In this document: positions 3,119-45,209 of the stretch, one piece after another
Layout of the letters: each line of letters begins with the position of its first letter
How positions within the stretch are numbered: the stretch's first letter is position 1
Assembly: GCA_947488905.1 (NCBI GenBank)
Contig: CANLBJ010000002.1
Coordinates: 62,001 to 126,000 of the forward strand
From: Ulvibacter algarum
GTDB taxonomy: Bacteria > Bacteroidota > Bacteroidia > Flavobacteriales > Flavobacteriaceae
Direction of reading: 5' to 3'
Length of the DNA: 64,000 nucleotides
The notes under the pieces: generated by a model
Told to the model about the DNA's origin: nothing
The model's database searches: none
What the model saw: the letters and a program-made list of their open reading frames with translations, nothing else
Translations under genes and position numbers: made by a program

Positions 3119-5725
3119 TTATGCATCTTCTAGAACAGCATCTTGATTTCTAAAGACCAAGTTGTCATTAAAACTATCAAGTAATATGATACTATCTGTA
3201 GTAACTTTTCCAGAAAGAATCTCCTTAGAGAGTGAGTTAAGCACCTCTTTTTGTATCACTCTTTTTACAGGTCTAGCTCCATATTGAGGATCATATCCTT
3301 TTTCTGCTAGATATTTAATTGCCTCTTGTGTAGCGTCCATTGTAATACCTTGAGCGGCTAACATTTTTGTTACACCTTTTAATTGAAGACTTACAATTTT
3401 TGAAATATCTTCTTTAGATAATGGAGTAAATAAAATGATGTCATCTATTCTATTTAAAAACTCTGGTCTTACTGTTTGCTTAAGAAGGCCAAGTACTTCT
3501 ACTTTTGCAGCTTCCATTGCAGTTTCTGGGTCTTTAACCGTATCATATTTTTGTTGTATGATCTCGCTTCCCATATTACTAGTCATTATGATAATGGCAT
3601 TTTTAAAATCTGCAACGCGCCCTTTATTATCTGTTAATCTTCCTTCATCAAGAACTTGTAATAAAATATTAAAAGTATCTGGATGCGCTTTTTCTATTTC
3701 ATCAAGTAAAATTACAGAATAAGGCTTACGTCTCACAGCTTCTGTTAACTGACCACCTTCATCATAACCTACGTACCCAGGAGGCGCACCTACTAATCTA
3801 CTCACGCTATGTCTTTCTTGATATTCACTCATATCAATACGAGTCATAGAATTTTCATCATCAAACATATAACCAGCTAAAGCTTTTGCAAGTTCTGTTT
3901 TACCAACTCCAGTTGTACCTAAAAATAGAAAACTACCTATTGGCTTTTTTTGATCTTGCAAACCTGCACGACTTCTGCGTACCGCATCACTCACGGCGAC
4001 TATTGCTTCATTTTGCCCCACTACACGTTTGTGTAACTCATCTTCTAATCGCAATAATTTTTCACGGTCGCTTTGTAGCATTTTTGTGATAGGAATACCT
4101 GTCCACTTTGCTACCACTTCTGCGATGTCTTCGCGAGTAACTTCTTCTTTAATTAAGGTTTCACCTTCTTGTTTTTCTGCAAGTTGAGTTTCTAATTTTG
4201 ATAAGTTTTCTTGAGCTTCCTTAATTTTTCCGTAGCGAATCTCTGCTACTTTCCCAAAATCACCGTCGCGTTCTGCTCTCTCTGCTTCAAGTTTAAAAGC
4301 TTCTATTTCTGTTTTAAGATTTTGTACATTTTCTACAACCTCTTTTTCGCTCTTCCATTTTGCATTAAGCTCGTTGCGTTCTTCTTTTAAGTTAGCAAGA
4401 TCACTGTGTAAAGATTTAAGCTTTGTCTCATCTTTCTCTCTTTTTATAGCTTCAATTTCAATCTCTAGTTGCATTACTTTTCTGTCTAATACATCTAGTT
4501 CTTCCGGCTTGCTGTTAATTTCCATTCGCATTTTACTTGCAGCTTCATCCATCAAGTCAATGGCTTTATCTGGTAAAAAACGATTTGTAATATAACGTTG
4601 CGATAACTCTACAGCTGCAATAATAGCATCATCTTTAATACGAACTTTATGGTGAGTTTCATATTTTTCTTTGATACCACGTAGTATAGAGATCGCACTT
4701 TCTGTATCTGGCTCATCTACTATTACTTTCTGAAATCTTCTTTCAAGCGCCTTGTCCTTTTCAAAATACTTTTGGTATTCATCTAGGGTAGTAGCACCTA
4801 TTGCTCTTAACTCACCACGGGCTAATGCTGGTTTTAAAATATTTGCAGCATCCATTGCGCCTTGACCTCCACCGGCACCAACGAGTGTGTGTATCTCATC
4901 AATGAAGAGTACAATATTTCCGTCACTGTTAGTTACTTCTTTAATTACTGCTTTTAAACGTTCTTCAAATTCTCCTTTAAACTTTGCTCCAGCAATTAAT
5001 GCACCCATGTCTAAAGAATAAACTTCTTTATTTTTTAAATTTTCTGGCACATCGCCATCTACAATTCTATGAGCTAGTCCTTCTGCAATTGCAGTTTTAC
5101 CTGTACCAGGTTCTCCTACTAGCATAGGGTTGTTTTTGGTACGTCTTGTTAATATTTGTAAAATTCTGCGTATTTCTTCATCACGTCCTATAACAGGATC
5201 AAGTTTGCCGTCTCTTGCTAGTTGATTTAGGTTTTTAGCATATTTGTTTAACGAGTTATACGTTTCTTCAGCGCTTTGAGATGTTACTCTATCTCCTTGA
5301 CGTAACTCATCTATGGCTGCTTTTAAGCCTTTTTCTGTTACCCCTTGATCTTTTAGTGTTTGAGCTATGCCGCTTTTAGACTCAAAAATCGCGAGTAATA
5401 AGTGTTCTAGTGAAACAAACTCGTCATTCATCTTTTTTGCGATGATACTAGCTTGGTTCACTGTTTTTGCAGCTTCTCTTGAGAGCATTAACTCTCCACC
5501 AGATACTTTAGGGAAAGACTCAATTTGCTTATCTAGTATTTGTTGTAGTAACTGTATGTTAACGTTTAGTTTCTTTAATAAAAAGGGTGTCACATTTTCA
5601 TCAACTTCAAAAATTGCTTTTAATATGTGTTCGTTTTCTATTTGTTGGTGACCAAGCTCTTGCGCTATTTGTTGCGCCCGTTGTATAGCCTCCTGACTTT
5701 TTATGGTATAGTTATTAAAATTCAT
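3119..5725 (-). CDS. clpB: ATP-dependent chaperone ClpB
   Basis: 868 residues, the usual full length. Order: Clp N-domain repeats (1-145), first AAA+ domain with Walker A GEPGTGKT at 204-211 and Walker B FIDEIHTL, the coiled-coil M-domain (about 400-530) that distinguishes ClpB from ClpA/C, second AAA+ domain with GTTGVGKT near 605 and the C-terminal [11 protein letters not shown] motif. ClpB is the cytosolic disaggregase that works with DnaK/DnaJ/GrpE. No IGF/L loop for ClpP docking is evident, as expected. Monocistronic, with its own terminator. I see no CIRCE element upstream; control may be by an alternative sigma factor or a different repressor. Confidence 0.97.
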
Positions 5726-21255: not shown

Positions 21256-21286
21256 TTGTAACAGGTATTAAATTGTTCTATATTTG
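21256..21286 (+). promoter_or_regulatory. Promoter of the SRP RNA gene
   Basis: TTG (21256-21258), 20-nt spacer, TATATTTG (21279-21286), placing the transcript start at about 21291, exactly where the SRP RNA helix begins. Confidence 0.85.
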
Positions 21287-21290
21287 CAGC

Positions 21291-21392
21291 TGGCAAGTCC
21301 TACACAACTAGCTCCTGTTTAATCCCCCAGGGTGGGAACACAGCAAGGGTACACGGTCGTAGCAGTGTGATGTAGGTAGCTTGCCTTTTTTT
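21291..21392 (+). ncRNA. ffs: Signal recognition particle RNA (4.5S type)
   Basis: The conserved domain IV core is present: AGCTCCTG..., GGTGGGAACACAGCAAGGG and the closing TACACGGTCGTAGCAGTGTGATG region. The 5' GGCAAG (21292-21297) pairs with CTTGCC (21380-21385), closing a small bacterial SRP RNA of about 95-100 nt. T7 directly after acts as terminator. The RNA partners with Ffh to target nascent membrane proteins to FtsY/SecYEG. Confidence 0.92.
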
Positions 21393-43485: not shown

Positions 43486-44328
43486 ATGAAAAAATTAATG
43501 CTTTTTATCGCTGCTGTAGCAATGACTGCGGGAGTATCTGCTCAAATTGAAACACCGGCACCAAGCCCATTACAAAAAATAGAACAGAAAGTAGGACTTA
43601 CAGATGTAACTGTAGAGTACTCTAGACCTTCTAAAAAGGGAAGAACAATTTTTGGAGACTTAGTACCTTACGGAAAAGTATGGCGTACAGGAGCAAATAA
43701 AAACACAACCATCAACTTTAGTGAAGATGTAATTGTAGGTGGTAAAGAAGTAAAAGCTGGTACGTATGCACTCTTTACAAAACCTAATGCTACTAACTGG
43801 GATGTGTACTTATACACAGATACAGAAAACTGGGGAACACCAGAAAAATGGGATGATAGTAAAGTAGCTGCAATGGTAAGTGCACCAGCACAACCAATGC
43901 CAATGTCTATAGAGACATTTACTTTATCTTTTGATGACTTTAAAGGTAGCGATGCAAACCTTGGTATGATGTGGGACAATGTGTATATAGCAATGCCTAT
44001 AAAAACTATGACAGATAAAGCAGTTTCTGCTAGTATAGAAAAAGTAATGGCTGGACCAGCTGCAAATGATTATTACAGCGCAGCTGTTTATTACTTAGAA
44101 AATGGTAAAGACATTAATCAAGCAAAAACTTGGATTGACAAAGCTGTATCTATGAACGGAAATGCATTCTGGTACCAGAGACAACAATCTTTAATCTATG
44201 CGAAATCTGGAGATAAAAAAGGAGCAATAAAAGCTGCTAAATCTTCTATGGCGCTTGCAGAAAAAGCTGGTAACGCAGATTACGTAGCCTTAAATATGAA
44301 ATCTTTAAAAGAATGGGGAGCAATGTAA
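43486..44328 (+). CDS. Exported DUF2911 protein with C-terminal TPR-like repeats
   Basis: 280 residues from MKKLMLFIAAVAMTAGVSAQ, a signal peptide; the frame is open to 43459 but that adds nine polar residues. Residues about 30-175 are DUF2911 (VTVEYSRPSKKGRTIFG, YGKVWRTGANKNTTINF, AGTYALFTKPN), beta-rich and of unknown function. Residues 200-280 (DYYSAAVYYLENGKDINQAKTWI, GDKKGAIKAAKSSMALAEKAG) look like two TPRs. Common secreted protein in Flavobacteriia. Own terminator. Confidence 0.88.
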   Translation: MKKLMLFIAAVAMTAGVSAQIETPAPSPLQKIEQKVGLTDVTVEYSRPSKKGRTIFGDLVPYGKVWRTGANKNTTINFSEDVIVGGKEVKAGTYALFTKPNATNWDVYLYTDTENWGTPEKWDDSKVAAMVSAPAQPMPMSIETFTLSFDDFKGSDANLGMMWDNVYIAMPIKTMTDKAVSASIEKVMAGPAANDYYSAAVYYLENGKDINQAKTWIDKAVSMNGNAFWYQRQQSLIYAKSGDKKGAIKAAKSSMALAEKAGNADYVALNMKSLKEWGAM

Positions 44329-44350: not shown

Positions 44351-44384
44351 AAAAGCATCTCACAAAAATGAGATGCTTTTTTTT
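44351..44384 (+). terminator. Terminator of DUF2911 gene
   Basis: AAAAGCATCTCA (44351-44362) with TGAGATGCTTTT (44369-44380) and further T. It isolates the TPP riboswitch that follows from upstream transcription. Confidence 0.92.
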
Positions 44385-44492
44385 ATACATTTAATTTTAA
44401 AGATAAAAAATGTAAGATTCTTTCTTCTGAAATGTTAAATATTTGACTTTAAGGTGTTTGTGTGTAAATAAGTGTTATATTTATAACACATT

Positions 44493-44575
44493 AAATCGGG
44501 GTGCTTAAGTAAAACAGCTGAGAGGAAATACCCGTCGAACTTCGCGAGATAATACTCCCTGAAGGAATTTGATTA
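44493..44575 (+). ncRNA. TPP riboswitch (thi-box), orphan
   Basis: All thi-box elements are in order on the plus strand: GGGGTGC (44498-44504), CTGAGAG (44518-44524), ATACCC (44528-44533), GAAC (44537-44540) and GATAATAC (44548-44555). P1 AATC/GATT (44494-44497, 44571-44574), P4 CTTC/GAAG (44540-44543, 44561-44564) and P5 GAG/CTC all pair. Binds thiamine pyrophosphate. No plus-strand gene follows: the next gene, hisIE, is on the opposite strand, convergent. A perfect GTGTTATA/TATAACAC repeat (44472-44489) lies just upstream. Confidence 0.85.
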
Positions 44576-44576
44576 G

Positions 44577-44617
44577 AAATGGGAAAAAAACTTGAAACGT
44601 TTTATTCCCATTTTTTT
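44577..44617 (+). terminator. Terminator of the TPP riboswitch transcript
   Basis: AAATGGGAA (44577-44585) with TTCCCATTT (44605-44613), T-tract to 44617, immediately after P1. It could also serve hisIE, whose stop is at 44625, from the other side. Confidence 0.8.
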
Positions 44618-44624
44618 ATGTAAT

Positions 44625-45209
44625 TTATTTTGATCTCTCCCGCAACACTTCTTCAATATCAGTAATCTTAATATTCTTAGCATTAAACATTACAAGCAAG
44701 TGATAAAACAAATCTGCGGCTTCATTTTTAAATAAATCATCATTGTCGTCTTTAGCTTCAATAACAAGCTCTATAGCTTCCTCGCCAAATTTCTGAATAA
44801 TTTTATTCATACCTCTCTTAAAAAGAGATACAGTGTAAGATGACTCATCGCCTTCTTCAACTCGTTTTGCAATAGTTTGCTCTAACTCAAATAAAAACCC
44901 TTTTACACTATTGTCGTCAAAACAATTGTCTGTCCCTTTGTGGCAAACTGGGCCTACGGGATTTACTTTAATGAGCAAACTATCTTGATCGCAGTCTTCT
45001 TTTATAGATACTACTTCTAGAAAATTTCCTGATGTTTCTCCCTTAGTCCACAAGCGTTTTTTGCTTCTGCTATAAAAAGTTACACGTTGTTCTGCTTTTG
45101 TTTTTAAATAAGCTTCCTCGTTCATATAGCCCACCATTAATACTTGAAGTGTTGCTGCGTTTTGTATAACAGCTGGCAATAAGCCGTTGTCTTTATATTG
45201 TAATTTCAT
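44625..45209 (-). CDS. hisIE: Bifunctional phosphoribosyl-AMP cyclohydrolase / phosphoribosyl-ATP pyrophosphatase
   Basis: 194 residues. The N-terminal HisI part has the zinc/Mg site: TFYSRSKKRLWTKGETSGN, DCDQDSLLI and PVCHKGTDNCF. The C-terminal HisE part begins at about 105 and has FGEEAIELVIEAKDD and NEAADLFYHLLVM. Catalyses steps 2 and 3 of histidine synthesis. Last gene of the his operon, 4 nt after hisF; its 3' end faces the orphan TPP riboswitch. Confidence 0.97.
   Translation of the reverse strand: MKLQYKDNGLLPAVIQNAATLQVLMVGYMNEEAYLKTKAEQRVTFYSRSKKRLWTKGETSGNFLEVVSIKEDCDQDSLLIKVNPVGPVCHKGTDNCFDDNSVKGFLFELEQTIAKRVEEGDESSYTVSLFKRGMNKIIQKFGEEAIELVIEAKDDNDDLFKNEAADLFYHLLVMFNAKNIKITDIEEVLRERSK

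Follow-up and report, generated by a model that had tools for sequence, protein, structure and literature searches.

Riboswitches are defined by control of an attached gene. At one locus of Ulvibacter algarum, a TPP-type aptamer is followed at once by a terminator and then by a gene on the opposite strand. What does such an aptamer do? The sequence-only reading of this locus had offered three answers: a relic of a lost or moved thi operon, a stand-alone RNA of about 120 nt, or an antisense RNA over hisIE and hisF made by TPP-free readthrough. Analysis of the surrounding 64,000 nt of DNA (the window) and of related genomes leads us to think it fairly probable that the locus encodes an independent RNA of ∼125 nt, which carries an aptamer for a thiamine compound and acts in trans. 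The parts of this reading differ in strength. That the RNA is a stand-alone, conserved gene seems to us very probable, while ligand-dependent action in trans is a point on which we find the balance even.

The RNA element and its neighbours

A profile search of the 501 nt around the locus with RF00059 gave a full-length match (model positions 1–105, E = 1.4e-8), and the same match was recovered from the whole genome (3.55 Mb) at E = 2.3e-8. Its score lies below the Rfam gathering score for the family, 54.3, so the aptamer is missing from a gathering-threshold Rfam scan of the window. The covariance-model check proposed in the sequence-only reading thus upheld full-length homology and failed on the curated cut-off. 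Despite that cut-off, homology of the element to RF00059 is clear, and a chance origin of the match can be excluded given the conserved relatives described below. The element has the five-helix fold of RF00059 with the CUGAGA, GGGGUGC and L5 blocks, in agreement with the earlier description of a thi-box in which P1, P4 and P5 pair. Besides P1 (see the table), helices P2 (CGGG/CCCG), P3 (GCT/AGC), P4 (CTTC/GAAG) and P5 (GAG/CTC) can be read from the window copy, and eight of its positions are flagged in the RF00059 alignment as not in standard pairs.

Just upstream lies a box, TATATTTA, that matches what we take to be the flavobacterial −7 consensus; no −33 TTG was identified upstream of it in the window at the spacing we assume for this group. 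A TAnnTT box starts between −14 and +2 of the element start in all 56 members of the set defined below, versus 36 of 224 control windows taken 150–450 nt upstream of the element, and transcription likely starts at or beside P1. The intrinsic terminator stands directly 3′ of P1, as had been claimed. Its stem is formed by 44577-44585 with 44605-44613, and across the 56 members the helix is 99.6% paired, with both-side changes in 6 of 10 pairs. On sequence grounds, then, the element has the promoter-like box and the intrinsic terminator of an independent small-RNA gene.

What had been said of the neighbours also held. The upstream gene has a hairpin and T-run of its own, and no plus-strand gene follows the RNA: hisIE is convergent and ends 8 nt beyond the terminator, and no thiamine gene stands directly downstream as in a cis riboswitch. 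A simple terminator scan found neither of the two hairpins at the locus. Elsewhere in the window (21284-21390) is a small SRP RNA matching RF04183, a family named for Bacteroidales, at 94.3 bits.

Table. Coordinates, in window numbering, of the RNA element and its neighbours
Feature	Position	Strand	Basis or remark
TPP-type aptamer (RF00059 match, sub-threshold)	44487..44583	+	48.6 bits, E 1.4e-8
−7-type promoter box TATATTTA, just 5′ of aptamer	44476..44483	+	sequence; box conserved in members
P1 5′ strand TTAAAT	44491..44496	+	partner ATTTGA 44567-44572, one G-U; sequence
J3/2 core CTGAGA	44518..44523	+	CTGAGA in 50/56 members, CTGAAA in 6
P4-P5 arm, L5 ATAATA, without the J4/5 CG step	44540..44564	+	alignment columns
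Intrinsic terminator	44577..44617	+	AAATGGGAA ... TTCCCATTT, U-run 44611-44617
DUF2911 protein gene, upstream neighbour	43486..44328	+	PF11138, E 1e-54
Terminator-like hairpin and T-run of DUF2911 gene	44355-44384	+	sequence
hisIE, convergent neighbour, outside the RNA unit	44625..45209	-	PF01502 and PF01503

Relatives and covariation

In a second genome of the same genus (G005), the RNA is identical to the window copy at 126 of 133 aligned positions, compared to 62 of 83 in the upstream spacer, 462 of 582 in hisIE and 715 of 843 in the DUF2911 gene. There the DUF2911 gene again lies on one side, but the convergent frame on the other side is one of 208 codons (L034:4376-5002), absent from the window and without a Pfam match, which separates the RNA from hisIE. 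In three further genomes of the genus (G003, G006, G008), an RF00059 search with stricter filters found nothing at E ≤ 0.01.

More distant copies were found in several ways. Searching 397 family genomes at the DNA level produced matches in 17; 13 of these (the window genome, G000, included) carry the RNA, which is missing from the other four. In GTDB representatives, a pattern scan yielded 24 exact matches in 23 stretches, from Aequorivita, Winogradskyella, Marixanthomonas, Hanstruepera, Arcticiflavibacter, Luteirhabdus, Pukyongia and Thermobacterium, together with one Ulvibacter MAG and one Flavobacteriaceae MAG. Thirty-three distinct copies of the stand-alone RNA were used to build a covariance model, R1; run against the 397 family genomes (E ≤ 1e-4, stricter filters), it returned 76 matches in 73 genomes, 36 of them of the stand-alone type, in 34 genomes of 25 genera. 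All 76 were inspected. Apart from two loci, L025 and L136, the others were classed as cis elements accompanied by a same-strand gene, the exception being L218, where a distant frame on the opposite strand was the only one found. In a class-wide search with a further model, R2, 203 of 395 genomes had a match. Seventeen of these loci were read (L148–L164): L148, from the same family (G210), is a stand-alone copy, and the stand-alone terminator was seen in none of the remaining 16 (L149–L164). Two copies per genome occur in G265, G322 and Winogradskyella bathintestinalis, where they lie 3 kb apart (L082:884-1015 and L082:3866-3996).

The two loci set aside may be informative about origins. L025 (G041:C1:627266-627353) is a stand-alone TPP aptamer scoring 65.1 bits, above the gathering score, with its own TATCTTTA box, a convergent neighbour and a terminator that differs from the 56-member type; it may represent this arrangement at an earlier stage. 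L136 (G279:C72:70792-70919), of ambiguous type, consists of an aptamer and a different terminator before a same-strand gene resembling those for secreted proteins, and may connect the attached form with the free one. The genus of L136 also holds a carrier of the stand-alone RNA (G435). Neither locus, nor any cis element, was included in the 56-member set.

For the covariation analysis, we chose 55 loci by hand and aligned their 56 members to R1. This model held 16 pairs, in P2, two of P5 and the terminator; since it lacked P1, P3 and P4, the support for these three helices was not fitted. Over the 33 pairs of P1–P5 and the terminator, 92.5% of cells are paired and 24 pairs show both-side changes, and of 500 shuffles none equalled the alignment on any of the five measures used. 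In slid controls, 37–53% of cells were paired. The covariation score is 0.239, compared to 0.119 in shuffles, with the caveat that many members come from close Aequorivita species and that relatedness inflates such scores. P1 shows both-side changes in 6 of 7 pairs of alignment A4, with 85.9% of cells paired, and the eight strongest covarying column pairs (among pairs formed in >70% of members) fall in P1, P2, P4, P5 and the terminator. At the level of the alignment, these data demonstrate purifying and compensatory selection on a unit of promoter-like box, aptamer and terminator. Of the three earlier options, the stand-alone RNA is thus strongly supported as a conserved gene, by 56 copies of this unit.

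Ligand pocket and thiamine genes

By its alignment, the stand-alone aptamer is a variant of the TPP type. Among 30 high-scoring RF00059 sites of related genomes (L004–L033), 27 have CG at the end of the 3′ strand of J4/5; judged by the same alignment columns, 2 of 56 stand-alone members do. We take this step, from the E. coli thiM structures, to be the pyrophosphate contact. L025 is counted among the 30 sites and is one of the three exceptions, reading GUG. The window copy has CCU before GAAG and no CG step, and CG anywhere in J4/5 plus P4′ occurs in five of the stand-alone members. Text-pattern counts gave 25/28 high-scoring sites versus 1/56 stand-alone members in unequal windows and 27/30 versus 23/56 in an equal window, the last figure being raised by P5, whose sequence CGGATAAT is picked up by the pattern as well; both counts are superseded by the alignment-column test. 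Other blocks are kept, with GGGGUGC in 49 of 56 members and the L5 UAAU in all 56. Given the absence of the CG step from J4/5, the ligand of the stand-alone RNA may be a compound other than TPP.

The change could also have gone further, leaving a structural or protein-binding RNA built on an inherited TPP aptamer scaffold that has ceased to bind thiamine compounds. Such a scaffold would fit the absence of CG by alignment column in 54 of 56 members, the changed P2/P4 region of the distant members L130, L131, L134 and L137, and the score of the window copy below the gathering cut-off. It sits less well with the retention of CUGAGA (50/56), GGGGUGC and UAAU, and with both-side changes throughout P1–P5, which indicate that the whole aptamer is under selection and not a fragment. 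Moreover, the CG step is also missing from the four TonB-linked elements examined, which presumably are still sensors. On balance, we consider loss of ligand binding unlikely, and return to an RNA that would sense a thiamine compound.

The host genome contains two RF00059 matches at E ≤ 10, one of which is the window copy. The other (C1:670053, 36.2 bits; L003:7054-7168, with L003 3672-5066 and 7326-9506) lies 158 nt before a TonB receptor. About 3 kb from it are a Thiamine_BP protein and a PnuC-type (NMN_transporter) protein, and an AAA_28 protein is near. We examined 22 RF00059 matches: 18 precede a same-strand frame of >700 codons resembling the host TonB receptor (a likeness Pfam-checked for the window genome's frame only), three are the stand-alone RNA and one is before a transporter-like frame. 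The TonB-linked and stand-alone elements differ and are not to be pooled. In G005, the P3 arm of the TonB-linked element (L035 ∼4900-5060, 30 bits) is swollen by short near-repeats.

No match to ThiC was found in the host genome, and two TMP-TENI proteins were over the cut-off. The lack of thiC, together with a TonB receptor that has its own cis TPP-type element, is consistent with thiamine scavenging. Among 65 genomes tested, thiC was found in 11, comprising 3 of 32 carriers of the stand-alone RNA and 8 of 33 hand-picked non-carriers, a tally that leaves out the carriers G258, G360 and G386 (completeness 68–89). As thiC is absent from 29 of 32 carriers and also from 25 of 33 non-carriers, thiamine auxotrophy was rejected as a trait that sets carriers apart. 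In one carrier with thiC (G023), a high-scoring RF00059 site lies ∼0.8 kb before that gene and the stand-alone RNA is elsewhere on the same contig.

Mode of action, precedents and significance

If the RNA worked as a cis attenuator, ligand would set termination versus readthrough, either for a same-strand gene or for antisense transcription over a convergent neighbour. A same-strand frame is indeed the first downstream frame (≥80 codons) in 13 of 55 members, 85 to 638 nt away, and L136 has aptamer and terminator before a same-strand gene. Folding also offers a candidate second state. Folded alone, the window element has a z-score of −2.16 (8 of 200 shuffles as good), and its minimum-energy fold lacks P1, the 3′ strand of which pairs with J2/4 (44534-44572); this predicted alternative may be the ligand-free state. 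However, the terminator starts after P1 without overlap, and no conserved antiterminator emerged from column-pair covariation in the 56 members or from folding of truncated transcripts. A single listed covarying pair (columns 8–120) ties P1 to the 5′ arm of the terminator; it is isolated and varies in two related sequences. When truncated transcripts are folded, pairing of any one aptamer column with that arm is limited to at most 6 of 56 members. The missing conserved partner of the 5′ arm is an observation at the level of sequence, not a biochemical one. Context argues in the same direction: the first downstream frame runs opposite to the RNA in 42 of 55 members, and the 55 downstream genes fall into 33 clusters (the 54 upstream genes into 28). 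We regard attenuation as improbable. Since the RNA lies beside unrelated genes in many relatives, this free-standing, thiamine-sensor-like RNA is probably a working regulator not tied to one neighbour.

Signs of a possible partner were sought in the sequence. Among the 56 members, no conserved unpaired segment suggests itself as a pairing seed beyond the aptamer core. The conserved P3 loop CUUAAG was rejected as a seed because other members have ordinary P3 helices, and the terminator stem AAAGGGAA/TTCCCTTT was rejected as a special signal because 51 of 118 relatives (Flavobacteriales) have stems like it. Stems of the form AAAGGGAA...TTCCCTTT often match on both strands, and a control with the pattern reversed found 2 in total. 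An encoded peptide was likewise rejected: the longest closed frame has a median of 11.5 codons and reaches at least 20 in 10 of 56 members, with no shared frame suggested. In a small duplex test against TonB start regions of four genomes, 56, 148, 74 and 90 of 200 shuffles were as good, so that base pairing to these regions was at chance level; against one pnuT region, 15 of 200 shuffles were as good, a weak result. With no seed apparent and TonB duplexes at chance, a protein partner or another mRNA is as likely.

Conceivably no partner is needed, if an abundant RNA simply soaks up a thiamine compound as a buffer or decoy. In favour of such a role, conservation centres on the aptamer, nothing resembles a target seed and some genomes hold two copies; yet the free RNA would have to match the concentration range of its ligand, and we know of no precedent for a ligand-buffer RNA. 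We give this possibility a slim chance. Still less probable is the proposed TPP-controlled antisense RNA coupling thiamine to histidine synthesis. hisIE ends 8 nt past the terminator here and adjoins the RNA in G335 too, but it lies within 3 kb of the RNA in just 3 of 56 members, the 208-codon frame intervenes in G005 and no switchable terminator is indicated. Comparison of the hisIE 3′ flank in relatives therefore gave a link that is not kept and, with 33 downstream clusters of 55, the connection to the his operon was rejected. A relic of a lost or moved thi operon, or an assembly artefact, is hardly credible: the host has no thiC match, but the RNA is better conserved than the spacer and hisIE, covaries over 56 copies, recurs in the same arrangement in 25 genera and varied contexts, and coexists in G023 with a separate RF00059 site before thiC.

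We return to an independent RNA acting in trans, the expression, ligand and trans action of which we infer. RNA polymerase would start at the promoter box just 5′ of P1, make the TPP-type aptamer and stop at the built-in terminator ∼125 nt on, presumably with or without ligand. Binding of a thiamine compound, either TPP or, in view of the changed J4/5, a related one, would lock P1 and the tertiary docking. Bound and free RNA would then differ in stability or in exposed parts, and the RNA would work on a protein or an mRNA, with thiamine scavenging as the most plausible process. A bolder proposal, which we put forward tentatively and with more doubt than belief, is that these RNAs constitute a new class of free-standing riboswitch, with a thiamine-family aptamer, its own promoter, a constitutive terminator, no expression platform, and a pyrophosphate pocket remodelled toward thiamine, TMP or another compound, exerting trans control of scavenging across Flavobacteriaceae.

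How does this RNA compare with known systems? It shares with the TPP riboswitch RF00059 the P1–P5 architecture, CUGAGA, GGGGUGC, the L5 UAAU and a full-length match, and differs in standing alone without a downstream gene, a conserved antiterminator or the J4/5 CG, and in its sub-threshold score. The remaining comparisons draw on excerpts of the cited papers. TPP riboswitches of Bacteroidetes precede the thiSEGCHF operon and an outer-membrane thiamine receptor (PMC5613172); the host belongs to the same phylum and has a TonB-linked TPP-type element too, but the stand-alone RNA does not lie directly before thiamine genes. SreA, a SAM riboswitch of Listeria, also acts in trans on prfA mRNA (PMC8079631), so that action of a riboswitch-type RNA away from its locus is established there. 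SreA, however, is also a normal cis riboswitch, shortened by SAM-dependent termination and with SAM as ligand, whereas the stand-alone RNA lacks a cis gene and its terminator gives no sign of being switchable. A B12-riboswitch-controlled RNA of Listeria, Rli55, sequesters EutV (PMC8079631). It is likewise a vitamin-cofactor sensor on an independent non-coding RNA, but has a separate effector part behind the switch, where the stand-alone RNA has none besides the terminator. A C. difficile review mentions an orphan riboswitch between CD2517 and CD2517.1, its function not known (PMC11477304), which from its table placement is apparently of the c-di-GMP kind. The F. psychrophilum transcriptome includes independent small RNAs and a thiamine cis element, and the excerpted text describes no RNA like the stand-alone element (PMC9723704). 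One of its RNAs, Rfp18, is also an independent, conserved small RNA gene of Flavobacteriaceae but differs in that no vitamin aptamer is described for it in the excerpt (PMC9723704). In titles and abstract openings of the top-ranked open PMC literature, no stand-alone TPP aptamer RNA is described, which is limited evidence of novelty.

As the window copy does not reach the Rfam gathering score, scans at that cut-off may be passing over similar RNAs. A TPP-type aptamer conserved as a gene in its own right would be a natural and directly testable ligand-sensing small RNA, in a setting of bacteria that mostly seem to scavenge vitamin B1, given thiC in 11 of 65 genomes. In the evolutionary series from elements before thiC, through those before TonB receptors, to the stand-alone form, the ligand pocket shifts together with context, and ligand specificity is therefore testable on natural variants.
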